Shown here one piece after another: positions 1 through 19,808 of a stretch of DNA of 35,665 nt. Origin of the DNA: a virus; IMG/VR virus record IMGVR_UViG_3300048015_000068, positions 1-35,665 of that record. One strand, 5' to 3'. Position numbers and translations under genes: made by a program. The notes beneath the pieces were generated by a model, which searched no databases, was not told the DNA's origin, and saw only the letters and a list, made by a program, of their open reading frames with translations. Position 1 is the stretch's first letter; every line of letters starts with the position of its first letter.

Positions 1-3000
1 GCCCGGCTTTATGAAGTTCGATTCCTCCAGCTGCGCCCGCGCCTCTCGCACCATGTCGAGGTTCGCTTGCGCGGCTTTCAGCGTGCCAAATCGCTGGCGC
101 AATCCCGGGAAGGCATTTAGCGCCGATTTGTGATCATCGACCCATTTTTGCAGCTTCTGGCTATCGAAACTGCCGTTTTTGGCCGCAAAGGCTTTCAGAT
201 CGTATGCGGCATAATCGCCGATGGCGCGTTCCGCCGCTTCTCGAGAACCAAATGCCGCGATCAGGTTTTGGGTGGGTTCGGCGCCGATTTCGCCGCGTTT
301 CCAGAACGTGGCGGCCACCTTGGACAACGCCATCTTGAAATCGCCGCCCGGACCCCGCGCCAGCACTTCGCCCGCCGGCGTCTTCGGGCCAAACCGCGCC
401 ATATACGCGCGGTTGAATGCGTCGGCCGCCTTAAACCTATCGGCGTCGTCGGCCGTCAGGTTTTCTTCGAGAGGGCTTCCTTGATTTCCGGCCGATCCAG
501 GATTGCCTTTGCCCGCCGCATCATCGACAGATCGCCGAACCTGGTTGCCGTTTTCTTCATTGCCAGCGCCAGTATTCCCAGCATGAGCGGGTGATCTTTT
601 GGCCGGCCGGGATGTTCTTCCTGTGTCATTGCGCTTTATCGCCTGATCCAAAATTTCGGTGGGAGTGGCGTTTTCCCCAAAAAGCCGGGCTTGGTTTGTC
701 TGCTTCAATGCCTCTTCGGCATAATCGGTTAGCACGCTGGCAAATTTCTGGCGAGATATCCGGCCTGCATAATTTTCACCAAAAGCTGCGCGCAGCATTT
801 CCGCCGTCGATTTCGACACGCCGCCGCCCAACACATCCTGCTGGGCCACCATGTCGCGCAGCGATATCCGCTTCATTTTCGCTTGCGCCACTGTCCGAGC
901 CGCGTCGGCGAGCCTGCTGCTGATATCCGTCACGCCGCTCACGTGACCGCCCTGAACCTCCGTGCGCAGCCGGGCCATCGGACCTGCAGCATCCATCAGG
1001 GCGCCCCCGAAAGCCTTGATGTTCTCATCCCCGCTTTCGGCCAGCGCGCTCACAAGTGCCGGATCGCCATAGGCCTTATGCAACAGCGCGTTTCGGATGC
1101 GTTGAGCGCCCTCAAGCGAGAGACCGCCATCGCGGGTGATGATCGACCCTTCCTCGCCCTTCTCGATCGCGTGCTGCATGAAGGACCGGACAAAATCCCG
1201 GTTTGCAGCCGTCGTCACGTCGCCTGACCTGAAGAGTGCCAGCGTCTCATCCGGCAATCTGGACGCGTCGATTTTGGCCCGCTCGGTCGCTGACAGCGCC
1301 AACCCAGTGGGTGCGTTGGCCTCCTGGGTGAATTTGACGCGATCTTCCGGAGAAAGCTGGGTCAGCCTTTCTCGGACCAGGATCGGCTCTTTCATGCCGG
1401 ACACGTCATAACCCTGTTCCGCCAGAAACCGCCGGTAAGCCGCCGCCTGATCACCGCCGGCCGCATGCGCCTGGCGGATCGCCAGATACCGGGCGTTTCC
1501 GCTCTCGACCACGCCGTCCGGGCCCACGATCGGCGCGCCTTCGCCCGCCGACGCAGACGCGCCAAGGCGCTCGGGTTGCAAGTTTCCGGCTATGCGTTGC
1601 ACCTGCTGCCCGCTCGCCGCCCTTGTCCTGTCGCGCGGCTGCAATTCCTGCGGAAATGCCGGGTTGGGGGCCATATCCGCATCATGCGATCCGCGCAGGC
1701 TCGATGCCTCAACCACGCGGTAACCCACATCAATGCGCCTGCCAGACGGGGTGAATACCGCCGATCCCGTGCCAGGCGCCGCCCTGTCTCCGCCGCTCGC
1801 GTGCGTGGCCAACCGACCGACCACTGTGGTTTCCGGTGAGGCGCCGCCCGACGCGATCTTGCCGCTTTGCCTGGCGGCCGCGCGCTCCGTCGCTTCGAAC
1901 TCCGCCTGATCCACCGCTTGCTTGAGGATCGTCAAGCGCCGCACGGCCTTTGCCGCGCCTTGCACACCCGTATTTGCGCCGGCGGTCGCCTCTTTCAGCG
2001 CCGCGTTCACGTCCTGCCGGAAAGCCGAAATATCGGCCATCGGCATGACGCCTCTCATTGTCTTCGCCGTCTCGATCAGATCGCTTTCATAAGACCCGAA
2101 CTTCTGATTGACGGCGGGGCGCAATTCCCCTTCCAGCCTTTGCGCGGCGGCCGCGATCGGCGCGGCGCTGATCGCCAGCTTTCCATCCGGATCGCGCGCC
2201 GCGTACAACGCGCGCCTTTCCTGGTTGGCCTCGTCTTCCACCGCAGCCAACCCGTCCCGCAGCCTTTGTCCGTATCCCTGAATGACCGTTTGCGCATCCG
2301 TCCAACCTTGCTCCCCACCGATCGCGCGCGCCATGTAGCGCACGTTGCCTTCAGCCTGGTTGACCGCTTCATCCGCTGCTCTGACCGCCGGTGCCCTGCG
2401 GCCGGCGATGTGGCCCTGCATGTCCGCGCCAATGTCGCCCGGGTGTGCCACACCCCCGACGCGCGAAACCGCATCGTTGTACGCGGCCTGCAGACGTGCC
2501 ACGGCCGCCGCTTCCTGCTGATCGATCTGATCCAGGCGATTGACGAAATAATTGCCGGCAGCCGAGGCTTGCGCATCCTCCGCCGAAAGATTGGCTAAGT
2601 GGGCCACCTGCGCGTTATTCTGCGACACCCGACGGTTTGAGAACGCCTCGCGCGCATACTCGCTGGCCGTGGTCAGATTGCGTTCCATGCCGAGCAGCCC
2701 ACGATTGCCCGTCAGCTGCCCGGCGGTGGGCTGCGCGCCTGGCACGTTGGGCGGTCCGGAAAAGAGCGATGCCGCCAGATCATCCGGCGACATGCCGGCG
2801 CGGCGCGCGGCTGTGCTGGCCGCATTGTCCATCATGTTTTGCCGCACCATGATCGGCTTGCCGTCGGTGCCGACGAAGGGCTGCCCGTTTGAGTCCACCA
2901 TCGGCGCGAGCTCGCCCACCGGCAATGTGCTGGTGGCCGCGTTGTGCGCGGCTCGAACGCCTCGAGCGGCCAACATGGTTGCTGCCGTGCCTGCAACGGG

Positions 3001-4104
3001 CACGATGCCACCCGCAATCTGCCCGGCCGTTTCGATCAGCGGAATGTATTGCTCCGGCACACCCTCGTGACGCGCCACATCGCCCGCCACGGTGCCACCT
3101 GCACCCGCAGCTGCACCCGACATTGCCGTGGGTGCCACCGGCGCTTCAGCCAACGTGCGCGCCACGCCACCCGCCACAGGGCCGATTGCTTCGCCCGCGC
3201 GCGCAACCTGGCCTGCCACACCCAGTGGCGTCACGGCGGCACCTATACCCTCGCCTACGCCCTGCGCCACCTGTTCAGCAGGGCCCTGAGGCTGGATGGT
3301 TCTGGGATCTGCGCCCAGCAATCCCATTGCCGACATCAGCCATTGCGAGCCGCCAACGCCAGGCGGAAGGGTTGGCAGGTTCGTGCCAGCCACAGCATTG
3401 ATGCCGCGCGGCACCAGGTTGAGCGCGCCGGTGACCAAATCCACAGGTGCGCCGAGTGTGCTGGCAATGCCCTTGTTCACGCCGGCCGCAAGATTGCCGA
3501 CCATACCCGCATCGGATGCTGCTGCAGGCGCTGCGGAGCTGGATGCGGCACCACCTGTCGCCGCCGCATTTGGTCCCGCACCCGCTGCGCCAGACGGGGC
3601 CGCCGGCGGCGAAGCGGTCACTGCATCGAGCGCCATCACCTTCGCCAGGGCATCATCGTCCGCCTTGCTTGGCGCCAACCCAAACTTTCCAACCGGCGCT
3701 GACACTGCGGCAGGACCGCCGGCGCCCGGCGAAACTCCCCCGTTCGGCGCGGTGCCCGCCGTCACCAGTGCCAGCGGCGTTTGTGCGGCCTTGGACCCGG
3801 GCGCCGCCACATTCTCACGCCGCCAGTTCAAATACGTGGCGTAATCATCCACCGCGCGCTGCGCATCGTCGCCTTTGAGCGTGGCAGCCGGCGGCGCGGG
3901 CGGAGTGTTCTGGTAACGCGCGGCGGTCAACGGTCCCACCACGGCGATCGCGTCATCGCTGGGCTGCGGCAGCCCTGGCGCAAGCCATGATGAGACCGGC
4001 GGCACGTCAGCCGCAGGTGGCGAGCTAGGCGGGTTGGCCGCCACAGCCGCCGGTGGCGCATACTGCCCCTGGTCGAGCTGTTGCAGCGTCGAAAAATCCG
4101 GCAT
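1..4104 (-). CDS. Giant virion-region protein with ddrB-like ParB-superfamily domain (3' end beyond window)
   Basis: The frame opens with ATG at 4104 and stays open for 1368 codons to the window edge, so the C-terminus is missing. The first ~200 residues are Ala/Pro-rich. Around 208-240 a segment reading GIASTLGAPVDLVTGAL resembles a conserved segment seen in other large phage proteins. Residues ~450-790 are helical and Ala/Gln-rich. Residues ~789-1010 look like the ddrB-like ParB-superfamily domain of large polyvalent proteins: YRVVEASSLRGSHD, LQPRDRTRAA (821-830), GAPIVGPDGVVESGNARYL (856-874) and ITRDGGLSLEGAQRIRNALL (989-1008). More helices follow. The domain is known from phage and plasmid proteins thought to enter the recipient cell with DNA. 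By position, last of three coupled genes after the tail hub, this is probably the largest ejection protein, like P22 gp16; that role is inferred. The start overlaps the upstream stop (TAATG). Confidence 0.85.
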   Translation of the reverse strand, partial: MPDFSTLQQLDQGQYAPPAAVAANPPSSPPAADVPPVSSWLAPGLPQPSDDAIAVVGPLTAARYQNTPPAPPAATLKGDDAQRAVDDYATYLNWRRENVAAPGSKAAQTPLALVTAGTAPNGGVSPGAGGPAAVSAPVGKFGLAPSKADDDALAKVMALDAVTASPPAAPSGAAGAGPNAAATGGAASSSAAPAAASDAGMVGNLAAGVNKGIASTLGAPVDLVTGALNLVPRGINAVAGTNLPTLPPGVGGSQWLMSAMGLLGADPRTIQPQGPAEQVAQGVGEGIGAAVTPLGVAGQVARAGEAIGPVAGGVARTLAEAPVAPTAMSGAAAGAGGTVAGDVARHEGVPEQYIPLIETAGQIAGGIVPVAGTAATMLAARGVRAAHNAATSTLPVGELAPMVDSNGQPFVGTDGKPIMVRQNMMDNAASTAARRAGMSPDDLAASLFSGPPNVPGAQPTAGQLTGNRGLLGMERNLTTASEYAREAFSNRRVSQNNAQVAHLANLSAEDAQASAAGNYFVNRLDQIDQQEAAAVARLQAAYNDAVSRVGGVAHPGDIGADMQGHIAGRRAPAVRAADEAVNQAEGNVRYMARAIGGEQGWTDAQTVIQGYGQRLRDGLAAVEDEANQERRALYAARDPDGKLAISAAPIAAAAQRLEGELRPAVNQKFGSYESDLIETAKTMRGVMPMADISAFRQDVNAALKEATAGANTGVQGAAKAVRRLTILKQAVDQAEFEATERAAARQSGKIASGGASPETTVVGRLATHASGGDRAAPGTGSAVFTPSGRRIDVGYRVVEASSLRGSHDADMAPNPAFPQELQPRDRTRAASGQQVQRIAGNLQPERLGASASAGEGAPIVGPDGVVESGNARYLAIRQAHAAGGDQAAAYRRFLAEQGYDVSGMKEPILVRERLTQLSPEDRVKFTQEANAPTGLALSATERAKIDASRLPDETLALFRSGDVTTAANRDFVRSFMQHAIEKGEEGSIITRDGGLSLEGAQRIRNALLHKAYGDPALVSALAESGDENIKAFGGALMDAAGPMARLRTEVQGGHVSGVTDISSRLADAARTVAQAKMKRISLRDMVAQQDVLGGGVSKSTAEMLRAAFGENYAGRISRQKFASVLTDYAEEALKQTNQARLFGENATPTEILDQAIKRNDTGRTSRPAKRSPAHAGNTGAGNEENGNQVRRSVDDAAGKGNPGSAGNQGSPLEENLTADDADRFKAADAFNRAYMARFGPKTPAGEVLARGPGGDFKMALSKVAATFWKRGEIGAEPTQNLIAAFGSREAAERAIGDYAAYDLKAFAAKNGSFDSQKLQKWVDDHKSALNAFPGLRQRFGTLKAAQANLDMVREARAQLEESNFIKPG

Positions 4105-6113
4105 TACTGACCGGCCGCCGAAAACAACCCGTTTTCGCTGGCATATTTCGTGCCCGCTAGAAGCCGATTCCATTCAGCGCGACCCTGCGCGGTCGCCTTC
4201 AACCGTTGCATGAGCACTTGCGCATCCTCGACCGGCATCCGGTGCAGGATGAACACGCCAGGCGTCAGGTTCTTGTTGAATTCGGATTCGAACTGCGCGG
4301 GCCTGCCATTAAAGTTTGCCGCCGCCGCAGCTTTCGCCAAAGCGTAATCATTCAATCCCTGCTGCTGATCGGCGATGCGGTTGAAAGCCTGGGACACCAT
4401 GCTCGATGTCGGCAAATTTCGCTGAATGAGCTTGAGTTCTTCGACGCCCACCTGAGGCGAAATCGCGCTGGCAGTGTTTCTGGCCAACTGTGCAGCGTTT
4501 TTGTCGAAATCTTCCAAATCCGCGACACTTTCGGGCATTTTTCCGCCCAAAGCCTGCGAGATCGATCCGAGGTATTTCTTGATGCCTTGGTATTGCTCCG
4601 TGAAAGACCCGTGGTCGAACCCCATGCCTTGGATGCGCATCTGGTCGAAAATCGTGTTGTTCTGAACGGCCGCTTGCGACGATTGCGTGAGATTGTCGCG
4701 GTATTTGGCCATCGCTTCGATATCGCTTTTGGACTGCGCGACAGCGGTTTCCTTGCCGGCCTCGATCGCCGCTTCCTGCGGCTTGCTGAACTGCGGAGGT
4801 CCGCTCGGTATAAGGCCCGCACCTGGACCAGCAGATGTCAGCGGTCCCGCTCCGGGTGGTGATGCAGCACCCTGACCCAAAGACGGCGACTGGCCCCCAA
4901 GGTAGCCGCCGGCGGGCGTCGCAGGCGCGTTTGTCAGCGGCCCAAGAATCGGACCGGGCGCGATCCCGCTCGGCGCTACTGGTGCCAGACCGCCGGAGCC
5001 GAGAGGGCCACCCTGCAGCGTCGGCCTTGAGCCGGCTGGCGCCCCCGTCACCGGCGGCAGATACCCCGTCGCCCCATTGGCCCGGTTTGCCAGCGCCGTT
5101 TCGGTGGTTTTGGTGGGCTGGTAGACGACATTGCCTTTGTCGTCGAGGATCGGCACCGAGGGCCCGTCGATGACATTGTAACGCCCCTTGGCCGCCGCTT
5201 CAGCGGCAGCCAGCGGGCCAGCATATTGCAGTTTCGCCTGACCCGATCCAGCCTCACCCGCATACGCCATCTGCCCCTTTGCTTGAATCGCGGTGGGATT
5301 GGCTTCGGTCTGACCAGTTTGCGGATTTACCTGCAGTCCTTGGCCTGAATACTTTTCCAAAAGTTCCAGATAGGTTTTGGGATCAGAAAGGCCCTGGATT
5401 ACCGCATTTCGGATGCCAGGATTATTGATCGCCATTTGGTAGTGCTGCGGGTCCATCCAGCCCTCTTGATAGGCCTGAGTAACTCCTTGATTCCAATCCG
5501 GTTGACTCAAAAGCTCGAAAAGCCTGCTGCGCCTTTCCTGCATGGCGTCTTTCAATGCAGCGGATGGGTCGCTGGAAAAGGCCACAGCCATGGCCTGTCC
5601 AAAAGGAAGCGGCGCACCATAGATCGTCTGCACGGCGCTATAGGGCGACACCAGCGCACCCAACACTTGCCCCGGCGCTGGCATTCCCGGCGAATGGGTT
5701 GCAGCAGTCGCACCCGCCGGCAGGATTGGATTTGCGCTTTGTCCCGACGCGGTGCCGCCTTGCGCCGCGCCTGCGCCTTGACCATTCAAAGGGCCGGCCG
5801 TGACGGGCATGACAGGCGCGGTGCCGTTTCCGGCTGCGGCATTTGGCTGAAGAAAGCCCGCGCCCGGCGGGGCGCCTGCAGGTTGCACAGCATTGGCCAA
5901 CGGCCCGGCCTGCCCCTGCCCGATCTGTCCGGTCAGGTATGGGGCAGTTCTAATCTTTAGGCCCTCAAGCTGGATTCCAGCCGTTTGGTTGGCTATCTGC
6001 GCGGCCTGAGTCTGCTGCTGCTTCAGCGCCAAATCCTGCCAGTTCAAATAGCCCGCCACCGGATTGATCGGTGTGCCTCCGGAGGCGATCTGCGCGTTGA
6101 CGTTGTCGCTCAT
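4104..6113 (-). CDS. Putative internal virion / DNA-ejection protein (669 aa)
   Basis: The protein starts MSDNVNAQIASGGTPINPV. The first ~150 residues and a central stretch (~340-440) are low complexity in Gly, Pro, Ala and Ser. The C-terminal ~230 residues are helical and hydrophilic, with many Gln, Asn and Ala (e.g. QAFNRIADQQQGLNDYALAK). No enzyme motif or membrane segment is visible. It overlaps the upstream gene by ATGA and the downstream giant gene by TAATG, so the three are probably translated together. Position between a p32-type DNA-transfer protein and the giant ParB-domain protein matches P22 gp20, and the helical, disordered character fits an ejected protein. The function is inferred from position; I do not recognise a family. 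Confidence 0.7.
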   Translation of the reverse strand: MSDNVNAQIASGGTPINPVAGYLNWQDLALKQQQTQAAQIANQTAGIQLEGLKIRTAPYLTGQIGQGQAGPLANAVQPAGAPPGAGFLQPNAAAGNGTAPVMPVTAGPLNGQGAGAAQGGTASGQSANPILPAGATAATHSPGMPAPGQVLGALVSPYSAVQTIYGAPLPFGQAMAVAFSSDPSAALKDAMQERRSRLFELLSQPDWNQGVTQAYQEGWMDPQHYQMAINNPGIRNAVIQGLSDPKTYLELLEKYSGQGLQVNPQTGQTEANPTAIQAKGQMAYAGEAGSGQAKLQYAGPLAAAEAAAKGRYNVIDGPSVPILDDKGNVVYQPTKTTETALANRANGATGYLPPVTGAPAGSRPTLQGGPLGSGGLAPVAPSGIAPGPILGPLTNAPATPAGGYLGGQSPSLGQGAASPPGAGPLTSAGPGAGLIPSGPPQFSKPQEAAIEAGKETAVAQSKSDIEAMAKYRDNLTQSSQAAVQNNTIFDQMRIQGMGFDHGSFTEQYQGIKKYLGSISQALGGKMPESVADLEDFDKNAAQLARNTASAISPQVGVEELKLIQRNLPTSSMVSQAFNRIADQQQGLNDYALAKAAAAANFNGRPAQFESEFNKNLTPGVFILHRMPVEDAQVLMQRLKATAQGRAEWNRLLAGTKYASENGLFSAAGQ

Positions 6114-6886
6114 CCGGCACCAACCCCGCCGTTTGGCGCGCCGGTAGCTGCTGCGGAATAGGAAGAGCTACCTGCGCCGAACAGCGCATTGAGAAAATTC
6201 TGATTGCCCAGCGCGCCCAGGGCATTGTTGATCCCGCCAGACAAAGCGCTGGCAGTTCCCAACGTCCCCGCCGCACCTGCAGCCCCGTACCCATTGAGGT
6301 AACCGCCCACGTTGGTCGCAGCCGCATTTCCGAGCTGGCCGCCGCTGACGGCCGATGACTGCCCCATCCCGGCCAGCCCCTGCAGCGTTGCGATGTAGCT
6401 GCCAAACCCCGACGACGCATACCCGGACGCGTACTGGTCAACCGCCTTGGCCTGCGCCCCCGATCCGGTCAACCCAGAGGCGGCCAAAGACCGGTTGGTC
6501 GACAGCAGTCCCTGCTGCAGCGGAAACTGGTAGGACGGCAATTGGGTGAAGTTCAGATATCCCTGCGCCGCCCCATTCGCGTTGCCCTGCCCGTTGGCCC
6601 CCGCCAGCCCATACAGCCCGGCCAAAGATTGCTCGGCACTCGCCCCCGTCGTAAGATACGGCGCCAAGTTCTTCTGGGTGGTGTTGTAAACCCCTTCCTC
6701 AAACTGCAACGCCTGCTGCTCGGCCTGCTGCTCCTGTTTGGCCGCCGACTGCGACGCAAACATGTTCAGCAGGCCGCCGCCCACCGACCCCGCCGCCGAC
6801 AACAGGCCGCCGCCCACCGACCCCGTCGCCGACCCCGCCGCCAACAGGCCGCCCGCAATTATAATAGGCACAATGGCGCCCCCCAT
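6110..6886 (-). CDS. DNA-transfer protein, p32-like (258 aa)
   Basis: I chose ATG at 6886 rather than a longer frame opening at 7027, because the extra N-terminus would overlap the sulfotransferase-like gene and reads as its shadow. An AAGG sequence lies just upstream of 6886. The protein opens with a Gly/Ala-rich hydrophobic stretch (IVPIIIAGGLLAAG), then a Gln-rich helix, then QKNLAPYLTTGASA and LPSYQFPLQQGLLSTNRSLA. This is the usual pattern of podoviral 'DNA transfer protein p32' homologues: a glycine-zipper-like N-terminus, APYxxxGxxA, and a YQFxLxQGL segment. Such proteins are packaged and thought to help form the DNA conduit through the envelope. The stop overlaps the next start (ATGA). 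Family assignment is from remembered motifs. Confidence 0.7.
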   Translation of the reverse strand: MGGAIVPIIIAGGLLAAGSATGSVGGGLLSAAGSVGGGLLNMFASQSAAKQEQQAEQQALQFEEGVYNTTQKNLAPYLTTGASAEQSLAGLYGLAGANGQGNANGAAQGYLNFTQLPSYQFPLQQGLLSTNRSLAASGLTGSGAQAKAVDQYASGYASSGFGSYIATLQGLAGMGQSSAVSGGQLGNAAATNVGGYLNGYGAAGAAGTLGTASALSGGINNALGALGNQNFLNALFGAGSSSYSAAATGAPNGGVGAG

Positions 6887-7434
6887 ACCTTCCCGCGCAT
6901 TTCCGGAAACAGATCGAAAAGCCGCGGATTCATCGAGGCCTCCGCCAGTCGCTGGAAAGGATCGGCCTGAATGTTCCATTCGCGCCATATCTTCCAGTGC
7001 GCGCGCGGCATCGGCACTCCGTGGCACAGGCGAAAAATGTGCCCGCAGACCAGTTCCTCCGATAAATCCTCAAAATCGAAGTGATGCCCGATGCCGGCCG
7101 TCTGCATGTCCTCGATGCAGCGATCCAGTTTTGCGACCTCCAAAAACAGGTTTTGGCCAGAAACCGCCATAAGGCTGTCCGCCACGTCGCAAACACCGCG
7201 GCGCACGACGACGATCACGGCGTCGGGACGCATCTGCACGATCTCGCGCCACCGAAGCGTCAGCAGCGAGTCGGAGGCCGCGAATCGATCATCCGCGCAT
7301 GCAACCCTGAGTGAGTCGATACCGCACCAAAACCGGCACGGCTCGTGAACGCATTCGCGCCCCTGGTATGACAGGAACGATGCGAGCCAGGCGGTGCGGC
7401 TGCGCGGCGTGCCCAGGACCAAAAACGGCGTCAT
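6859..7434 (-). CDS. Sulfotransferase-like protein (191 aa)
   Basis: The N-terminus reads FLVLGTPRSRTAWLASFL. This fits the 5'-phosphosulfate-binding loop of PAPS-dependent sulfotransferases (xxxPRSxTxxLxxxL). RPDAVIVVVRRGVCDVADSL at ~108-127 fits the 3'-phosphate-binding strand-helix with a conserved Arg and Ser. At 191 aa it is shorter than typical sulfotransferases (about 250-300 aa), so the acceptor-binding part is reduced. It sits inside the virion operon: its start overlaps the upstream stop (ATGA) and its last 28 nt overlap the p32-like gene. It probably transfers sulfate from PAPS, but the acceptor (virion protein, lipid, surface glycan) cannot be read from the sequence. A nucleotide-kinase-like P-loop is less likely because the GxxGxGKS pattern is absent. 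Confidence 0.65.
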   Translation of the reverse strand: MTPFLVLGTPRSRTAWLASFLSYQGRECVHEPCRFWCGIDSLRVACADDRFAASDSLLTLRWREIVQMRPDAVIVVVRRGVCDVADSLMAVSGQNLFLEVAKLDRCIEDMQTAGIGHHFDFEDLSEELVCGHIFRLCHGVPMPRAHWKIWREWNIQADPFQRLAEASMNPRLFDLFPEMRGKVWGAPLCLL

Positions 7435-10307: not shown

Positions 10308-10892
10308 TCAGAGCCCGCTGGTAATCTGTGTGCCGCTGCTGCTGACCAGCGTGCCGCCCGAAGTAAGATCAGCCCCCGCAGTCAGCGCAATGATGATGCC
10401 GGTGCCGTCTGCCGTCAGACCCACCGAAATGCCGCTCGCTCCGATCAGGCTGCGAAAGAGCGCCGTGCCCGAATTGCTGTGCACAGGGTCCAAAACGGGC
10501 GTGCCGGTGCCTTCGCTGGCCGCTTCCTGGCCGTTCGACAGCCACGTGGGCGCCAAAGGTTGCAAATGTCTGGCTTGAACCGTGACAAACCCCGGCAAAG
10601 GCGGCACGGCGCTCTCCAGCGCCGCCACACGCCCATACAGCGACCCATCGCCCGGCGGTGATCCGACACCCGTGTATTGGTTGTTCGTCAGCACCGTCAG
10701 CTGATCGGTCAACGTCTGCGTGACATTGCCGCCCCCGCTCGTCCCGCTCGATCCCGTCGAAGGGCTGCCCACATAGTCCAGCAGCCGCTGCATCACTTGC
10801 GCAAACCAGGGCTGAATAACCCCGTTTGCATCGACCACCGGCCGGTCGATGAGCAGGCTGCTGATGGGCTTGGGCGCGCCGGAGGTAGCCAT
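10308..10892 (-). CDS. Tail/neck-region virion protein (194 aa)
   Basis: Two ATGs stand in tandem at 10895 and 10892. I prefer 10892 because GGAGG lies 4 nt upstream of it but only 1 nt upstream of the first. The N-terminus (KPISSLLIDRPVVDANGVIQ, then WFAQVMQRLLDYVG) is typical of podoviral proteins carrying a short conserved segment before a coiled region. The middle is Gly/Ser/Thr-rich and contains VAALESAVPP. The C-terminal ~60 residues are beta-rich (LIGASGISVGLTADGTGIII) and resemble a collar/fibre adapter. The start overlaps the stop of the hub C-terminal gene. The role is unknown; a tail-fibre attachment protein is plausible from position. Confidence 0.6.
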   Translation of the reverse strand: MATSGAPKPISSLLIDRPVVDANGVIQPWFAQVMQRLLDYVGSPSTGSSGTSGGGNVTQTLTDQLTVLTNNQYTGVGSPPGDGSLYGRVAALESAVPPLPGFVTVQARHLQPLAPTWLSNGQEAASEGTGTPVLDPVHSNSGTALFRSLIGASGISVGLTADGTGIIIALTAGADLTSGGTLVSSSGTQITSGL

Positions 10893-12304
10893 CATTCCTC
10901 CGTCGAGATCGTGGGCATCCCCGCATACCAGTCAACGAAGGTCGAGATAATCACGCGCCGCACCGGATCGGTCGATTGCAGCCGAAAAATCCATTGCCGC
11001 CCTTGCCCAAGCCGCGTCCAGCGAAGCCGCTGCAGATAGGCGCCGATCTTGCCCATAGATCGAAACACCTGCAGGGGCCCCCATGTCCGCCCGCCATCCT
11101 TGGACCAATCCAGCATCCACACCGGATCGAACCCGCAGCATTCCGGGTTGCCCACGCCAGTTTCCACGTCAATCTCGACCTTGGGCACAAACACGCGCCG
11201 CCGGCCTGAATGGATAATGGGCGAGGTCACCAGTGCCAGCATCGTGTTGCCGTATTCCTGGAAGCTGTTGAAAGACGCCTGACCGATCACGCCCGAATAG
11301 GCGTCCCCGATCAGTGTCAGGCCATTCCAGTTGATGCCGCACGCGCCCCGCCAGCGCCCCAGGTTGTTGCTCGGCAGCACCGAGCAGCACTCGGCATTGC
11401 CGCTGCCCCCTCCACCCCCTCCACCCCCTCCACCCCCCTGCGCCAGGTAATAGGTGACCGTGTTGGACGTGACGCCTGTGACCGCATCCTTCACCTCCAG
11501 CACATGGGTGCCGTATTCCGCGGTGATCCCCGATCCGCCACCGCTCGAGGACCAATTTACGCCAGCCTCAAATCCGACCGAGGCCACGTACGAGCCACCA
11601 TCCTGCGAGACGAGCAACGTCTCGCAAATCGACCCCAGGTTGTTGCCCTGCAGCGGAATCGCTTGGCCGTATGTCGGAAAGACCTGATCCAGCACCAGCA
11701 CCTCGCCGTAATAGGCCGTGCCCTTGATGCTAAAATTAACCTCGATCCCCTCGGAATCGCTTACCCTGAAGCCGTAAATATTGTTGATGCTGCTGTATGA
11801 AGGAAATCCCGTGTCCAGCCAGTTGGGCGCACTCGACGGCGTGGTAACCGAGACCGCACCCGTGATCAACGACCCGCTGATACTTTGAGCGCTGGCCACC
11901 CCACTTGCATCAAAAGCCAAAACGGCTCCAGGGCTAAATGTGCCCGTATTGATGCTGCTCGAAGTACTGCCAGAACTGGGCGCTGCTCCGGTAAACACTT
12001 CCACCGTCACGGGACAAACGCCGCTGAAGCCGATATTCGTAAACGGATAGGTGCCGTAGCTGATGCTCGCTATCAGAAAATTGCCGAACCCCACGCCGGG
12101 ATTGCACGAGATCAGATCGCACGTCAGTTGCGTGCCCAGCGTCACATATTCGTCGCCGCCGAGCGTTTGAGTGCTCGAAAACTCGTAGACGATGCTCTGG
12201 CAGGGCGTGAGCAGCGTGAAAGTCACAGAGCTATCCGACGCGCCCGCCTCCAACGTGCCGTTGAACTCGAACGGATAGCTGACCAGTGAGCCGCTGCCGC
12301 TCAT
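10892..12304 (-). CDS. gp10-like tail hub, C-terminal half fused to a new N-terminal region (470 aa)
   Basis: Residues 1-~300 are beta-rich, with Ig-like character (GTHVLEVKDAVTGVTSNTV). A pure glycine run follows, and then a C-terminal ~165 residues: NNLGRWRGACGINWNGLTLI, SGRRRVFVPKVEIDVETGVG, DWSKDGGRTWGP, GKIGAYLQRLRWTRLGQGR and FRLQSTDPVRRVIIS. That last set matches the C-terminus of large gp10-type packaged-DNA stabilisation (tail hub) proteins of many podoviruses, where it normally follows the propeller-like N-terminal part in the same chain. Here that part is the separate upstream gene 13 nt away. I infer a two-gene hub. Paired cysteines (NAECC, NPECC) are unusual for such proteins. 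Confidence 0.7.
   Translation of the reverse strand: MSGSGSLVSYPFEFNGTLEAGASDSSVTFTLLTPCQSIVYEFSSTQTLGGDEYVTLGTQLTCDLISCNPGVGFGNFLIASISYGTYPFTNIGFSGVCPVTVEVFTGAAPSSGSTSSSINTGTFSPGAVLAFDASGVASAQSISGSLITGAVSVTTPSSAPNWLDTGFPSYSSINNIYGFRVSDSEGIEVNFSIKGTAYYGEVLVLDQVFPTYGQAIPLQGNNLGSICETLLVSQDGGSYVASVGFEAGVNWSSSGGGSGITAEYGTHVLEVKDAVTGVTSNTVTYYLAQGGGGGGGGGGGSGNAECCSVLPSNNLGRWRGACGINWNGLTLIGDAYSGVIGQASFNSFQEYGNTMLALVTSPIIHSGRRRVFVPKVEIDVETGVGNPECCGFDPVWMLDWSKDGGRTWGPLQVFRSMGKIGAYLQRLRWTRLGQGRQWIFRLQSTDPVRRVIISTFVDWYAGMPTISTEE
11406..11438 (-). repeat. 9-bp tandem repeat encoding a poly-glycine linker; G-quadruplex motif
   Basis: On the plus strand CCCCCTCCA is repeated three times from 11406 to 11432 and followed by six more C. 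On the coding strand this is four runs of 5-6 G separated by TGGA, encoding the glycine run of the hub C-terminal gene. Such repeats can vary in copy number in steps of three glycines and can fold as G-quadruplexes. Confidence 0.75.
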
Positions 12305-12317
12305 ATTGGGCCCCTAC

Positions 12318-13742
12318 TCACACCCATGGCGACCCCCAGCTTTGGCGCTGATGCCATAGCGGCTTTTCCTTGCCGCTTGAGACGTCATAGCACCAGGTCT
12401 GATTGCCTGAGAGGAAATTCAGGAAAATGAACTTGTGGCCTTCCATGTAGACGACAAAAGCCGCGCAATCAGTGATCGTCGGATACTGCGCCCAAAGATG
12501 CTCCATACCGAAGGTCGAAATGCGAACCGGCGTGTATCCCTCCAGCCGATAGAATATGCCGTCTTCGCCTAACCAAAAAATCGTGTTGTCTTCTTTGACG
12601 ATTGAGCGCGGCGAAGCGCAACCGCGCTGGATGAACGCGCCATCGAACCGCTGAAAGGGAAAGTTGGCCGATCCCGCGTCATACCAGACCTCTACTGTCT
12701 TTTCGCCGAAAATCAGCAGTTGCTCGTGATAGTTGGCCACCGCGACCACTAAATCGGGATCGGCTTGGGCTGAGGCAAAATCCAGCCCGTTATACTGGGT
12801 GCCATCGCCGAGCGCGGACAGAAAGAACTGATTCGTGCCGGCCGCATCGAAAATGAAGTAATCGTCGAAATAGATCACGCTGTTGGCCGGCATGAAGGCG
12901 GGCGCGGTGATCTGGCCCAACACGACGGACGGCACAACGGCGATGGCGCCCGCCGTAGCCTGGCCAGTGATCCCGGTTGCCAGCGTGATCACCAAACTCG
13001 ATGCCGGCCCGGAAATCGCCGAGATCGTGCTCGTGAACGTAGCTCCGCTATCGAGCGCGATGTTGATCGTTTGGCCGACCGCAAGCTTGCCGATCGAGGC
13101 CACCGTGATCGTGTTTTGGCCGCGACTGTAATCATAGACCGCGTTGCCCGAGCTCGCCTGCGCCAACAGCCCCGAGGACAGTGTGACGGTGTGTCCGCTC
13201 GGCGCGCCGCTTACCGTCACCTCGGACTGGCCGCCGCCATCAAGGTTTATGCGCAGCGCATCCCCGTTCTGAATGCCCGATATGGAGGCCACCGTGATCG
13301 ATGTGGCGCCGGCGGCAGCCGTGGCCGTAAGGGTGGTGGAGGTATAGCCAAGCGCCGTATCCAGCAGCACCTGATTGAGACCGCCCGGCTGATAGATCCA
13401 GCCCACCGAGCCATCCACCATGACGAGCTGGTATTCGTTGTCGGCCATCGACGCGATGTTGCCGATCGAGGTGGTGCCGAGCGATGTGGCTAGGCCGTTC
13501 GCGTTGATCTGGAAAAGCTGGCCGCCGGAAAGCGCGTAAAGCTGATCCTTCATCACGTGGAAGCCGTTGATCGGGCCTTTGCCTAGGCGCGACCACACGG
13601 ACAGGCCCGGCGCCATGTAGATCGGCACCTCGTCTTTCGCCTCCGGCGGCGACAGTTCGACGAACATGTTGATGCATTGCTGGGCCTGAACTGGCAGAGA
13701 GCGCGCCTGATAAGCCTGGGCCGCAAAATTGAGCTTGGCCAC
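12318..13742 (-). CDS. gp10-like packaged-DNA stabilisation protein, N-terminal part (474 aa)
   Basis: I choose GTG at 13742, 5 nt after the upstream stop, with AAGG immediately before it. Longer in-frame starts run through the gp4-like gene. The N-terminus SLPVQAQQCINMFVELSPPE and the strand GKGPINGFHVMKDQLYALSG are typical of P22 gp10-type proteins, which plug the head-tail channel after packaging. Residues ~139-271 hold two copies of a ~65-residue beta-module (GATSITVASISGIQNGD; NTITVASIGKLAVGQ). The rest continues the propeller: FIFDAAGTNQFFLSALGDGT, GEKTVEVWYDAGSANFPFQR, and GCASPRSIVKEDNTIFWLGE. It ends at KPLWHQRQSWGSPWV without the usual C-terminal hub segment, which is found in the next gene. 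Length equals P22 gp10 (472 aa) only because the module insert compensates. Confidence 0.8.
   Translation of the reverse strand: MAKLNFAAQAYQARSLPVQAQQCINMFVELSPPEAKDEVPIYMAPGLSVWSRLGKGPINGFHVMKDQLYALSGGQLFQINANGLATSLGTTSIGNIASMADNEYQLVMVDGSVGWIYQPGGLNQVLLDTALGYTSTTLTATAAAGATSITVASISGIQNGDALRINLDGGGQSEVTVSGAPSGHTVTLSSGLLAQASSGNAVYDYSRGQNTITVASIGKLAVGQTINIALDSGATFTSTISAISGPASSLVITLATGITGQATAGAIAVVPSVVLGQITAPAFMPANSVIYFDDYFIFDAAGTNQFFLSALGDGTQYNGLDFASAQADPDLVVAVANYHEQLLIFGEKTVEVWYDAGSANFPFQRFDGAFIQRGCASPRSIVKEDNTIFWLGEDGIFYRLEGYTPVRISTFGMEHLWAQYPTITDCAAFVVYMEGHKFIFLNFLSGNQTWCYDVSSGKEKPLWHQRQSWGSPWV
12930..13328 (-). repeat. Two tandem copies of a beta-module inside the gp10-like gene
   Basis: Residues ~139-205 and ~207-271 of the 474-aa product align by eye: (A)TSITVASISGIQNGDALRI versus NTITVASIGKLAVGQTINI, each followed by a TVTLSSGLLAQASSGNA or LVITLATGITGQATAGA ending. 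The same module occurs once in the gp4-like and once in the 171-aa neck gene. Confidence 0.65.
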
Positions 13743-13747
13743 CCGCC

Positions 13748-14740
13748 TTATCCGGTCCGGTAGCCGGGTTCCATGGCCACACCAAACAGCATGCTGACGG
13801 GTTCGCGGTCCCACATGGAGCAGCGGGCAAACCATGTGTCCGCGAATTTTTCCACCCGATCGAGCCTAGCGGCCGCCACGTCGTACTCGAGCGCAATTTC
13901 TTTGGCGAGATTGAACTTCAGCGCCGCGTTCCACTCGGTTGGCAGATCCGGGATTTGCGCGAGGCTGGTAAAATCCTGGATCCGGCGCTGGGCCACGAAG
14001 CGCAACGCGGCCGACAGGTCAGCCGGCGCCGGCCACAGGTTCATGAGGCCAACCGCGCTATTGTAAGACCCCTGGCCCTGCTGCGGATCGTAGTAAAAGG
14101 CGGTGAACGCGCCCTGATTGTACTTGTTCGGCAAATAGTCATAGTCCATGCGGGAATACACCGTCATGGGTATCTCGATCTGCCCGTTGAACTGGTAGCG
14201 CCGTCCTTCCGGCACCCGCAACGGACGCTGCAATGGCGTGGTGTAATCGAACGACAACGCGCCCGAGGTGGCCTGGCTGGGCAAGGAGGCCGACAGCGGC
14301 ACCACGTACCCCGTCGGCGCGCTGGCCACTGTTGTCCAAAAGTAGACGCCGGCGTCCAGCTGAACGCCGAACGTGTCGCCCGCTAGAATGCCAGAGACCG
14401 AGGATAGCGTGACGCTGCTATCGCCGGCGGCCGCGGTGACCGAGAGTGCGGATTGATTGAGCGAATTGAACAGGCACGCGTATCCAGTGCCGGCGGGGCC
14501 AAGCTGATACTGGGGTTGGCCCACATTGGGGAACAGGATGCACTCCTCCTGGCACCACAGCCGAATGCCGGCGGCCGACCAGCCTTTGACCATGGCGTTC
14601 AGGGCGTCCATGGCGTTCAGCAGCATGGACGCGGTGGGCGTCTCTTCGTCCGCAATCACGCCCAGCACGCGCAAGGTGGCCGTGATCAGCTGGATGGCCG
14701 TTTGAGACCATGTGTCCGTGCCGGAGGTGTAGCCTGACAC
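13748..14740 (-). CDS. gp4-like head-completion / packaged-DNA stabilisation protein (330 aa)
   Basis: GTG at 14740 overlaps the upstream stop (TAGTG). The longer frame from 14878 adds a basic, unlikely N-terminus. The N-terminus is diagnostic: SQTAIQLITATLRVLGVIA, DEETPTASMLLNAMDALNAM and VKGWSAAGIRLW. This matches the P22 gp4 family (xxALRxLGVLxxGExPxxxExxxALxxLNxML), which closes the portal after packaging and adapts it to the tail. Residues ~100-166 hold one copy of the beta-module seen in the gp10-like protein (DSSVTLSSVSGILAGDTFGV). The C-terminus returns to family sequence: LPNKYNQGAFTAFYYDPQQG, LPTEWNAALKFNLAKEIALE and CSMWDREPVSMLFG. Confidence 0.8.
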   Translation of the reverse strand: MSGYTSGTDTWSQTAIQLITATLRVLGVIADEETPTASMLLNAMDALNAMVKGWSAAGIRLWCQEECILFPNVGQPQYQLGPAGTGYACLFNSLNQSALSVTAAAGDSSVTLSSVSGILAGDTFGVQLDAGVYFWTTVASAPTGYVVPLSASLPSQATSGALSFDYTTPLQRPLRVPEGRRYQFNGQIEIPMTVYSRMDYDYLPNKYNQGAFTAFYYDPQQGQGSYNSAVGLMNLWPAPADLSAALRFVAQRRIQDFTSLAQIPDLPTEWNAALKFNLAKEIALEYDVAAARLDRVEKFADTWFARCSMWDREPVSMLFGVAMEPGYRTG

Positions 14741-15255
14741 TACCCGGGGCCGCCGCCGGTGTAGCGTTGACCGGCTCCCACCGTGACCTGCGGGCCGCTG
14801 AGGTTGATCACCTGGTTTTCCGGGGGATCGCCCAGGCCTGACAGCGCGACAGATGACGGCAACCCAGCGCCGGTCCACTGCAGTTGGCTGCCCACAATGG
14901 CCGAAATCGTGAAGTTGAAGGGCTCGCCATAATCGGTGACAACCTGCGCAATGTTGCCAACCGAAAAGCCCACAGTCGAGGCAACCGAAAGGGTGGTTGC
15001 GCCGCGGGCGGCAGGCGCGGTGACATAGGTGGCAACGACGGTGAACTGGTTTTGCTGGCGGGGGCGCGGGATCGGCACAGCCTGATCGTCGCGAACGCCG
15101 GTCACCAAATCCTGCGGCTGGCGGGACGAGAAACGCCCGCCGGCGGCGATCAGGTTATCCCATTGAATCCGGCCTTCGCTGGCGCGGATGGGAAAGCCGC
15201 TGATATCGTCGATCTGATACCAGTCACCGCCCTTGTAGCGAAGCCTGGTGCCCAT
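14740..15255 (-). CDS. Small neck/head protein with a beta-module (171 aa)
   Basis: The N-terminal ~65 residues (MGTRLRYKGGDWYQIDDISG, IRASEGRIQWDNLIAAGGRF, RQPQDLVTGVRDDQAVPIPR) look like a small family found next to gp4/capsid genes in podoviruses: 'YKG.WY..DDISG...RA.E...W.G......HPQDFVRG..D...VP'. Residues ~78-145 contain another copy of the beta-module (GATTLSVASTVGFSVGNIAQ). The tail is Gly/Pro-rich. The function is unknown; location between capsid and head-completion genes suggests a head-neck component. The start is ATG 15255, 27 bp after the capsid gene. Confidence 0.65.
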   Translation of the reverse strand: MGTRLRYKGGDWYQIDDISGFPIRASEGRIQWDNLIAAGGRFSSRQPQDLVTGVRDDQAVPIPRPRQQNQFTVVATYVTAPAARGATTLSVASTVGFSVGNIAQVVTDYGEPFNFTISAIVGSQLQWTGAGLPSSVALSGLGDPPENQVINLSGPQVTVGAGQRYTGGGPG

Positions 15256-15282: not shown

Positions 15283-16191
15283 TCAGACCCCCGCACTGCC
15301 GAAAACGCCCCTGAAATCCGCCCAAAACGCGCTGTAGCGCTCGTAGCACGCGGCTTTGGCGTTTTTCGTATCGAAATCATTATCTTGATCAAAGGTGATC
15401 TTGTCGCGCTCAAAATAGGTCACCGAACGCGGCACATTTGTCCGAATGTAAAATGCGGTCGCCGACGAGAAGTAGTGGTTGACCTTGATGCCCCTCGGAA
15501 AAACGTTGACGGCCTTAAGCACGTTCACCGCGTTGTTGGACGTGTCGTTCTGCAGCACCGAATGAATGATCCGGTTGGCATCGAAAAACAGCGCCGCCGG
15601 CACATGCAGGGACTGCGGCAGCACGGAAATGCGCAGGCCGCGGTTGTTCGTGGTCAGCATGATCTGGATGCAGAGGTCCTCCACGGCCGTTTCCGACAGA
15701 TCGGCAGCGACGGTCAGCACGTTGGACTGGTTGCCTGACACCGTGGGATGCGAGGCGCTGCACAGCGACTGACCATCGGCGCCCGGATACGATGCATTGA
15801 AGGCCTGGTTGTAGATCGACGCCAGCACGTTCTCTTTGGTTTGCCGCATCGAGAACGCCAGCTGCTGCGCACGGCGCTTGCCCACGACCTCGTATAGGTT
15901 GTCGCGTAATTCCTCGAACGTGACGATGTAGCCGAGCGCATAGGCCACGTGCGTAAAGCGAGAGACGGGGCCTTGCACCTCGGTATCGTAGAAAATTTGC
16001 TTGCCCTGCGGCTTGACCGGCGCAAGCCCGAACCCGGTGATTTCCACCTCTTCTTCATACGCCTTGTCGGACGTATCCGTCTCAAACAGATCGGGATATT
16101 CTTCTTGGTGTTCGTCGTAGCTGCGCCCCCACCAGGCTTTGATTCCGGGCCAAAGGGCTTTTGGATGCGAGCCGGTCGTAATCGTTGCCAT
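15283..16191 (-). CDS. Major capsid protein, Mu gpT-like / HK97-fold (302 aa)
   Basis: GGGAG lies 9 nt before the ATG at 16191. The sequence matches the Mu gpT-like major head protein pattern: KALWPGIKAWWGRSYDEHQE and YPDLFETDTSDKAYEEEVEI, then an E-loop-like segment QIFYDTEVQGPVSRFTHVAY. The spine-helix region is FEELRDNLYEVVGKRRAQQL. This is followed by GADGQSLCSASHPTVSGNQS, the A-domain ADLSETAVEDLCIQIMLTTN, and a C-terminal TFDQDNDFDTKNAKAACYER. There is no N-terminal scaffold/delta domain; a separate scaffold gene lies two genes upstream. At 302 aa it is typical for this capsid type. Confidence 0.85.
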   Translation of the reverse strand: MATITTGSHPKALWPGIKAWWGRSYDEHQEEYPDLFETDTSDKAYEEEVEITGFGLAPVKPQGKQIFYDTEVQGPVSRFTHVAYALGYIVTFEELRDNLYEVVGKRRAQQLAFSMRQTKENVLASIYNQAFNASYPGADGQSLCSASHPTVSGNQSNVLTVAADLSETAVEDLCIQIMLTTNNRGLRISVLPQSLHVPAALFFDANRIIHSVLQNDTSNNAVNVLKAVNVFPRGIKVNHYFSSATAFYIRTNVPRSVTYFERDKITFDQDNDFDTKNAKAACYERYSAFWADFRGVFGSAGV

Positions 16192-17579: not shown

Positions 17580-18536
17580 TTAATCGAATTGCGCCCAGTA
17601 ACTGCTGGCCCATTCCGCTTCCGAGAGAGGTTTAGTACCGGCCTTTGCGTCGATCATCCGCTTGTAGCGGTGGAACTGGTCTTTGACCTCTTGTGGCATG
17701 GAAGCGAAGTCACGGCGCGGTCCACTGCCGCGGGCGCCAGGGGCTGGGGCTGCATTGCCCACGGCTGCCGCTGCTGTCCTGCGTGGGTTGGCAGCGCGCG
17801 GTTGGTTGCCCTCTGCCTGCGCGCCTGCCTCCTCTCCTTCCGCAGCAGCCGCAGACCCTGCGCGTTGCCCGCGGAACTTGCTCGGAAACATCGCCCTGAC
17901 ACCGGCCGTGGTGCGCTCCAGGTTTTCCTCGATCGATAGTTCCGGTTCGGCTGCTTGCAGCCGATTGGAAATTTCGGTCGCAGCCTGCGCCATGACAGGA
18001 TCTGTGTTGAACCACGGATTGCGCTGGGCCCACTCGATGACTTCTGGCGCCGGCGCCGCAGCCTGCGTGCTGACCGCAGGCTTGGTTGGCGCCGGCCGGG
18101 GCGCCTCTCTTTCTGCCTCCCGCAGCCGGCGATCGGCATCCTTGAACGCCGCTATATCGCCAGATTCCACGGCCGCATCCCGCTCGCGCTCCAGATCGGC
18201 CCGCGCTCGCTTGTAGGCAATCTCTTCCGTCTTGCGGACGCGCTCGCCCATGTCCTCGAGCAGTGTTACCGCGGTCGCGTTTTCCCGCGTCAGCTTTTCG
18301 ATGTGGCCGTTCATCGAGCGCAGGCGGGTGCGAAGCAGCGGCAGATCGTTTTCCGCCCGGCGGAGATATTCGTCGGCTTCGACGAAATTGCCGGGCGGCC
18401 CGCGGTATTCCTCACGCGGCCGCCAGCCGGTTACGCGGGCGCGAGCCTCAATCTCCTCCGCAGTCTCTCCAGCGCCACCAGCGACGGCCGCAGCACTGGA
18501 ATCGATGCCGTTCGCCACGGCCGCAGCCCCACTCAC
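17580..18536 (-). CDS. Scaffolding-like head assembly protein (318 aa)
   Basis: Residues 34-60 (RVTGWRPREEYRGPPGNFVE, ADEYLRRAENDLPLL) match the 'GW.PKEE..G....W.DA..F..R' start common in phage scaffold-type proteins. A long charged coiled-coil follows at ~70-150 (RSMNGHIEKLTRENATAVTL, AYKRARADLERERDAAVESG). Residues ~160-290 are Ala/Pro-rich and probably disordered, and the C-terminus is a short basic/aromatic helix (KDQFHRYKRMIDAKAGTKPL, SYWAQFD) such as binds capsid. It lies two genes before the major capsid gene. Scaffold function is inferred from architecture and position. The start overlaps the GroES-like gene stop by ATGA. Confidence 0.7.
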   Translation of the reverse strand: MSGAAAVANGIDSSAAAVAGGAGETAEEIEARARVTGWRPREEYRGPPGNFVEADEYLRRAENDLPLLRTRLRSMNGHIEKLTRENATAVTLLEDMGERVRKTEEIAYKRARADLERERDAAVESGDIAAFKDADRRLREAEREAPRPAPTKPAVSTQAAAPAPEVIEWAQRNPWFNTDPVMAQAATEISNRLQAAEPELSIEENLERTTAGVRAMFPSKFRGQRAGSAAAAEGEEAGAQAEGNQPRAANPRRTAAAAVGNAAPAPGARGSGPRRDFASMPQEVKDQFHRYKRMIDAKAGTKPLSEAEWASSYWAQFD

Positions 18537-19117
18537 TGCTGCAACTCCAGCGCCGGCGACATGGCGCCCGAAGGCACTCCGGCATCGTCATCCTGAGCCT
18601 TGCCCGACGCAACGCCAGGCAGGTCCAGCAGCTCGGCGCCATCGCGCGTAAACAGGTAGCTTTGGCCCATGGCCTCGAACAGTTCAGCGGTGCCTTGCGC
18701 CTCTGCCGGCTCATCCTCGCCGATGTCGGCCATACCCATCACGCCGGCGATGCTGCGGTCCTGCAGGACGCGGTAGAGCTTGCCGTCAAGGCCCGCATAT
18801 TCTTGGCCTGAGTAACGCTGGAAGCAAATGCGCGCGCCCACCTCCGGCCGATCGCCCTCCCAGCGCCTGGTGCCGTCCGAGTTCCAGGAAAACGCCATTG
18901 GACCCACGGCCACCATCACGCCCGTTGTGCTGGCCAGCGTCTGCGATTCCTGCAACGAGTCGGTCAGGATCACGCCGCCCTTCGACCGCATCATGGCCGG
19001 ATCGACCATGACAACCACCTTGTCGCAGCACGGCACGATGCCGCTGGCATTCTCGCCCGACCACTTCTGTAGCAGGAATTGCCCGTTGCCGGTGGCCAGC
19101 ACCCGATCTTCGTTCAT
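18533..19117 (-). CDS. Phage-encoded GroES-like co-chaperonin (194 aa)
   Basis: ATG at 19117 overlaps the upstream stop (ATGA); the in-frame extension to 19318 is not needed. Residues ~25-125 match the Cpn10 fold: IVPCCDKVVVMVD (GroES IRPLHDRVIV), RSKGGVILTDSLQESQTLAS with the mobile-loop hydrophobic triplet VIL (residues 49-51), and TGVMVAVGPMAFSW for GEVLAVG. EVGARICFQRYSGQEYAGLD and YRVLQDRSIAGVMG complete the barrel. A ~24-residue N-terminal and a ~70-residue acidic C-terminal extension are not part of GroES. It most likely replaces host GroES on GroEL to fold the capsid protein, as T4 gp31 does, and it lies directly upstream of scaffold and capsid genes. The assignment is by motif only. 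Confidence 0.75.
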   Translation of the reverse strand: MNEDRVLATGNGQFLLQKWSGENASGIVPCCDKVVVMVDPAMMRSKGGVILTDSLQESQTLASTTGVMVAVGPMAFSWNSDGTRRWEGDRPEVGARICFQRYSGQEYAGLDGKLYRVLQDRSIAGVMGMADIGEDEPAEAQGTAELFEAMGQSYLFTRDGAELLDLPGVASGKAQDDDAGVPSGAMSPALELQQ

Positions 19118-19485
19118 TCCTGATTCCCCGTGATTAGAAGTTTGCTCCACACGCACCCGAGCCGAATACTGACCGACCCGCGCCACATCACGTCGCCAAG
19201 CATTTCCGCTTGGTTCAGACCCACAAAATCCCGCGCCTCGAACCGTGGCGCCTGCCCCCAGAACAGCCGAGAGCCGTTTCCCGCTTTGCGCGCATAGTGC
19301 TGCGCCCAAAACAGCCACTGCTCGACCGCTTCGCCTTCATCAGCAAACAACGCCGGCAGCGGGTCATCCGCGCGCATTTGGCCGCCGCTGGTGACAATGA
19401 CAAATTTGGCGCCATCAGGCGCGCCGCTTCCATCGAGAACCCGTTTGTCCCGCTCAAACTCCTCTACTGCATCGCATAGCCTCAT
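19114..19485 (-). CDS. Unknown phage head-operon protein (123 aa)
   Basis: ATG at 19485 overlaps the upstream stop by ATGA, and the stop overlaps the GroES-like start by ATGA. The sequence is a mixed alpha/beta protein: MRLCDAVEEFERDKRVLDGS, KFVIVTSGGQMRADDPLPAL, and EGEAVEQWLFWAQHYARKAG. No catalytic or metal motif is seen and I do not recognise the family. Tight coupling suggests a role in head assembly or virion composition. Confidence 0.6.
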   Translation of the reverse strand: MRLCDAVEEFERDKRVLDGSGAPDGAKFVIVTSGGQMRADDPLPALFADEGEAVEQWLFWAQHYARKAGNGSRLFWGQAPRFEARDFVGLNQAEMLGDVMWRGSVSIRLGCVWSKLLITGNQE

Positions 19486-19808
19486 TCGGCCTGCTCCTCA
19501 ACGCCGCCTAGCAGCTCGGCATAAAAAGCCCGGATATGCTCAAGCGTCACGCCGGCCGCTTCTTTGGCCATCAGCGCCCGCCCCCGAGCTTCCTGCTCGA
19601 AGGCAAGATCCTTGGAACCGGCCAGCCACCCAGCCGTGGCACGTTCCACCACGCTGTCCCCGAACTCATTGAGCCACACCAGGAACAGGCGGCTGACCGG
19701 GTGGTGGCGCCACAACCCCCACTGCTCCGGGCTGAGCTGGCGCAGCACCTCCAGGTCCTGCAAGGAGCGCCGGGTTGGTTTCTGGCCCTCCGCCTGTGTC
19801 TCCTGCAT
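19482..19808 (-). CDS. Small helical protein overlapping the portal 3' end (108 aa)
   Basis: ATG at 19808 has GGAGG 6 nt upstream, one of the best ribosome-binding sites in the window. The longer frame from 19952 adds an Arg-rich shadow of the portal gene. The product is helical: RRSLQDLEVLRQLSPEQWGL, WRHHPVSRLFLVWLNEFGDS, then a charged C-terminus EHIRAFYAELLGG. No family is recognised. The first 143 nt of the gene lie within the portal's Pro/Gly-rich C-terminal coding sequence, a much longer overlap than any other in the operon. The stop overlaps the next start by ATGA. Confidence 0.6.
   Translation of the reverse strand: MQETQAEGQKPTRRSLQDLEVLRQLSPEQWGLWRHHPVSRLFLVWLNEFGDSVVERATAGWLAGSKDLAFEQEARGRALMAKEAAGVTLEHIRAFYAELLGGVEEQAE

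Follow-up and report, generated by a model that had tools for sequence, protein, structure and literature searches.

The ddrB-ParB domain was defined by Iyer et al. (2017; PMC5512222), who proposed that proteins carrying it are packaged and injected, and who described its fusion to a lysozyme in Acinetobacter prophages; the idea of injection and fusion is thus already known. DdrB of the myovirus P1 is a late-encoded head protein, found with 39 peptides and 59.5% coverage, and the role assigned to it is to aid the addition of DarB to the capsid (PMC9024508). It is non-essential (PMC10695390), which means that the role of the module may be conditional, and the P1 Dar proteins exit with the DNA (PMC12810830). 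In the Helicobacter podovirus HPy1R, gp12 is a 200 kDa protein represented by 64 peptides in the virion proteome as determined by mass spectrometry (PMC9319048), and we confirmed its ddrB-ParB domain with the Pfam profile PF18763 (111 bits). A 2025 survey shows CTP, ATP or GTP as ligands of the ParB-CTPase fold, with mutants of the GxxR arginine as loss-of-binding controls; DdrB does not appear in it (PMC12704722). No report of NTP or DNA binding, or of NTPase or DNase activity, by ddrB-ParB proteins was found in the literature searched.

The uptake and protection of podovirus DNA in the first seconds of infection are poorly understood. In P22, gp16 is a virion protein that is ejected and needed for infection. 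In both P22 and T7, gp16 comes from the last gene, which is also the largest, of an ejection operon with three genes and has hydrophobic segments, and T7 gp16-C forms a DNA-binding cytoplasmic hub (PMC8954989). The same review describes no ParB-like domain in either protein. Here we describe a protein that occupies the corresponding place in its operon but does have such a domain. We found no description of this P22-type fusion, or of its recurrence in two ejection operons, in the open-licence literature searched.

The window is a whole IMG/VR record of 35,665 bases, which may be a fragment; all window coordinates below refer to the minus strand. The protein of interest (1-4104) begins with an ATG at 4104 and continues for 1368 codons with no stop to base 1, its C-terminus being cut off by the contig end. 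Full-length relatives have 1683 (L016 and L018) or 1693 residues (L094), and by comparison about 320 C-terminal codons are absent from the window. The initial annotation had placed QPRDR, GAPIVGPDGVVESGNARYL and ITRDGGLSLEGAQRIRNALL in a single frame of at least 1368 codons, and all three are indeed there.

Along the direction of transcription, the gene order is terminase large subunit (22801-24306), portal (19666-21822), major capsid protein (15283-16191), a head-tail adaptor of the P22 gp4 type (Ad3, 13748-14878; phrog_637, E 1.1e-4), a P22 gp10-like head-closure protein (Hc3, 10892-13835; phrog_578, reaching P22 gp10 at 4.8e-50), fibre-like genes, a gp7-like gene (6110-7027), a gene in the gp20 slot (4104-6113) and finally the ddrB gene. 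The Hc3 gene is a single ORF of 544 residues in L094 and is split into two ORFs in the window, with about 310 extra residues at the split that end in poly-Gly. The gp7-like protein matches phrog_598 (E 2.5e-21) and, after three iterations of profile searching, P22 gp7 itself (E 3.9e-48). The last three genes are coupled through ATGA at 6110-6113 and TAATG at 4104, with overlaps of 4 and 1 bases, and the gene order is kept in L016, L018, L094 and L017. A gp7 homologue, tail genes of the gp10 and gp4 types and an overlapping gene order are the marks of a P22-type ejection operon, and the window has all of them.

The initial annotation went further and saw in these three genes a mirror of P22 gp7-gp20-gp16. 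This stands for the arrangement, since the ddrB gene is the last of three coupled genes of which the first is a true P22 gp7 homologue, but not for homology to gp16: the comparison of P22 gp16 with the N-terminal region by hhalign gave a probability of 0.7%, P22 gp20 and epsilon15 gp15, gp16 and gp17 gave nothing by the same method, and no PHROG family matches the N-terminal part. The likeness to gp16 is therefore positional only. The 669-residue protein in the gp20 slot is homologous to the proteins in the same slot of L016 and L094 and matches neither P22 gp20 nor any protein among annotated phages. Its L017 version has an SLT domain, and a profile built from epsilon15 gp15 reaches the L016 version, a match that may be partly due to composition.

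The N-terminal part of the ddrB protein has a Gly/Ala-rich, hydrophobic and membrane-like segment (2965-3486, residues 207-380), followed by a charged, probably helical middle region (1780-2847, residues 420-775) that is conserved in L094, L016, L015, L017 and L071. The first approximately 170 residues of the hydrophobic segment are also found in proteins of 503-513 residues from other phages that have no ddrB domain, namely gp20 of Octadecabacter DB virus 2 and a protein of L095. Carrier and cargo thus appear to be separable. Relatives carry a variety of extra domains (SLT, PBECR3, Zeta-toxin-like AAA, InPase and M15 peptidase), with PBECR3 on the ddrB protein of L023. Polyvalent proteins in the sense of Iyer et al. 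(2017; PMC5512222) unite at least two known effector domains in a single chain; L015 has InPase with ddrB-ParB, and the truncated window protein has ddrB-ParB as its one recognised domain. Together with the ddrB-less homologues, these extras suggest that the ejection slot serves as a platform for delivering interchangeable cargo.

In the window, the cargo would be the ddrB module. The single Pfam domain recognised in the truncated protein is ddrB-ParB (PF18763; 1366-1746, residues 787-913), as the initial annotation had proposed: the window protein scores 119-124 bits (E about 1e-34 to 1e-38) against a curated cut-off of 27.6 bits, with 119.4 bits (E 1.3e-34) in one of the searches. Similarity to phrog_5143 spans residues 778-1155 (E 5.9e-76), and by tblastn 38 annotated phages match, mostly over residues 778-1092 or 778-1150. 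With both searches reaching beyond the Pfam core, the conserved unit is one of about 375 residues in which the core is joined to a helical partner. From these searches, conservation and modelling, we delimit the whole module at 640-1779 (residues 776-1155) and the helical partner, of about 240 residues, at 640-1365 (residues 914-1155). GAPIVGPDGVVESGNARYL (about residues 856-874) lies inside the Pfam match, while ITRDGGLSLEGAQRIRNALL lies outside it, in the adjoining helical region common to P1 DdrB and about 80 other proteins. An alignment-guided scan of viral contigs confirmed at least 562 relatives among the 600 candidates listed, and with the 38 named phages this puts the ddrB-ParB match far above chance. 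Single-sequence queries used in two scans against contigs of bacterial genomes turned up no relative, and neither did a sequence search of the PDB.

An AlphaFold2 model was obtained with a pLDDT of 91 for the whole module and 88 for the core alone. The core was folded alone since Foldseek found no match to the whole module in the PDB. For this core, each of the eight best PDB matches is a ParB or a sulfiredoxin; among them are a pNOB8-like ParB, a CDP-bound bacterial ParB and human sulfiredoxin in complex with ATP or ADP. All are weak (best E 0.017, none below 0.001). Among viral models, other DdrB-like proteins come first (E 1.7e-27), followed at lower rank by ParB and sulfiredoxin proteins. 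The module resembles canonical ParB CTPases in its tentatively predicted fold and in a GxxR-type motif. The canonical ParB_N profile PF02195 has no match in the window at E<=10, and a helical partner takes the place of a demonstrated HTH domain. No ParA was seen among the genes searched. The helical partner might resemble the first part of the HTH domain of ParB, but comparison with a SopB profile gave no sequence link, and we make no such claim.

An alignment of 87 sequences shows which residues do not vary: Q822, R824, R826, Q834, G856, P858, G869, N870, R872, Y890, P907 and L909 in the core, and E941, G993, R1002 and A1006 in the helical partner. QPRDR (1627-1641, residues 822-826), of the form QxRxR, contributes the first three, and the GxxR-type motif GNAR (1489-1500, residues 869-872), which reads GNGR in 95% of the aligned sequences, contributes G869, N870 and R872. 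A pocket arginine and a tyrosine in an extra helix are features of the ddrB-ParB family (Iyer et al., 2017; PMC5512222), and both are present in the window as the invariant R872 and Y890. This invariance of the pocket suggests a biochemical activity. One candidate is that of an injected, NTP-regulated, non-specific DNase or nickase, which would degrade host or rival DNA or nick the phage genome to start replication. The nuclease named in the initial annotation is a guess based on the superfamily; Iyer et al. (2017; PMC5512222) proposed such a role because other members of the ParB superfamily are DNases. Nuclease-type domains do occur on other ddrB proteins, PBECR3 in L023 and PBECR2 in HPy1R gp12. 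However, the same authors rate NTP sensing or degradation likelier than DNase activity, the nearest solved folds are, with their weak E-values, the nucleotide-binding ParB and sulfiredoxin just mentioned and no nucleases, and the recorded role of P1 DdrB is to help with the packaging of DarB (PMC9024508). A non-specific DNase packed with the genome would presumably also require tight control. We consider this reading unlikely, and a scaffold or switch a more likely function for the module than a free nuclease.

P1 DdrB (YP_006491.1) is about 34% identical to the window protein over the ParB-like core and the helical partner, and the window module ties it to a wider family. The two differ in architecture, the P1 module being N-terminal (residues 27-359) and followed by a metallopeptidase domain (Iyer et al., 2017; PMC5512222), and in setting, with P1 being a myovirus and the window phage short-tailed. 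Packaging in the head, known for P1 DdrB, is likely for the window protein too, and both are encoded among late genes. A module that merely organises internal head proteins at assembly, with no role after ejection, would agree with the help that P1 DdrB gives to DarB (PMC9024508), with its being non-essential (PMC10695390) and with the position of the module next to virion genes in the loci examined. Yet neither the window nor any of four relatives matches DarA, Hdf or DdrA, the DdrB module alone matching, and no DarB-like virion protein was recognised in the window. The P1 Dar proteins do exit with the DNA (PMC12810830), and the invariant pocket speaks for more than a structural part. We regard a role in assembly alone as unlikely.

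HPy1R gp12 also differs from the window protein: the helical partner was not detected, PBECR2 and DUF3519 are present, and its gene precedes tail fibre genes with no recognised gp7-gp20-gp16 operon. A parallel in position comes from about 27 loci of the epsilon15 type, in which the module sits in the gp16 slot and is followed, directly in nearly all of them, by a homologue of epsilon15 gp17; many also have homologues of gp11 and gp12 upstream. This order is seen in Alcaligenes phage Piluca and Acinetobacter phage TPWB-05, where the module is on the protein (Piluca gp47 and its TPWB-05 homologue) encoded between the gp15 and gp17 homologues. As in the Acinetobacter lysozyme fusion, the module is C-terminal and follows an SLT lysozyme domain, the proteins have 950-956 residues and the tail is of the epsilon15 type. 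Apart from the module, nothing in the Piluca and TPWB-05 proteins is similar to the window protein. A tree of 87 module sequences divides the P22-type carriers among separate supported clades, and supported branches force at least two changes of lineage label.

This recurrence bears on whether the window protein is an ejection protein at all. A late gene could have come by chance to lie beside the gp7 and gp20-slot genes and encode something else, such as a tail component or a protein that is not in the virion. Piluca gp47 does carry a tail-protein annotation, and the hhalign result for P22 gp16 would fit. We nevertheless regard such a coincidence as very improbable, given that relatives keep the order with overlapping genes, that a second lineage has the module in the epsilon15 gp16 slot, that DB virus 2 has the membrane-like segment too, on the protein encoded last in a comparable operon, and that HPy1R gp12 was found in virions (PMC9319048).

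The place in the operon, the homologue of P22 gp7, the ddrB module with its invariant motif residues and the recurrence in two lineages are best explained if the protein is the large ejection protein of a short-tailed phage of the P22 type, encoded last in its operon and consisting of a carrier and a cargo module. The presence of such proteins in virions, an idea already in the initial annotation, is supported by the published mass spectrometry of P1 DdrB (PMC9024508) and HPy1R gp12 (PMC9319048). With ddrB-ParB proteins in both of these virions, ejection is likely for the window protein as well, and the same fusion in two podovirus lineages makes its delivery into the host cell probable. It is probably a virion-borne, ejected effector or scaffold with a ParB fold. 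It would be packaged in the head and leave with the DNA; the hydrophobic segment in its N-terminal part would enter the inner membrane, in the way known from proteins of the gp16 type, and the C-terminal ParB-fold module would thereby come to lie on the cytoplasmic side. There, the module would most likely use the GxxR pocket to bind a nucleoside triphosphate, and associate with the incoming DNA or with other delivered proteins, although we hold this specific biochemistry only tentatively. The outcome may be help with genome survival and establishment, through anti-restriction or another early anti-defence activity. In a bolder version, distinctly unlikely as matters stand, the module would be an NTP-switched DNA clamp of the ParB type. 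Fixed to the ejectosome at its cytoplasmic end, the clamp would grip the entering genome or ratchet it inwards, protect the end that leads against host defences and correspond in molecular terms to the T7 gp16-C hub. An invariant, probably nucleotide-binding pocket on an ejection protein of two podovirus lineages offers a concrete handle, and single-residue mutants of the GxxR arginine could separate chemistry performed by ejected proteins in the host cell from channel building alone.

Several further observations were made in the window and in related loci. In L091 (2621-6709) and L078 (5321-6247), proteins encoded upstream of ddrB match phrog_4287, another family of DNA-ejection proteins, hinting at a third type of ejection operon. 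The ejection-slot ddrB protein of L050 (8288-11422) has a Zeta-toxin-like AAA domain (E 2.8e-14), and that of L012 (2946-5555; gp4 of E. coli phage vB_EcoM_APEC) has kept the core, with the motif ESGSVR, but lost the helical partner, and may be a decaying copy. In the window, a protein between the portal and capsid genes (18533-19318) has a GroES-like stretch (phrog_3188, E 1.3e-8). Finally, upstream of the ejection genes and overlapping the gp7-like one, a short ORF (6859-7434) encodes a small protein whose GTPRSRTAWLA motif is sulfotransferase-like; similar proteins are found in the ddrB loci L049, L056, L059, L073 and L075.
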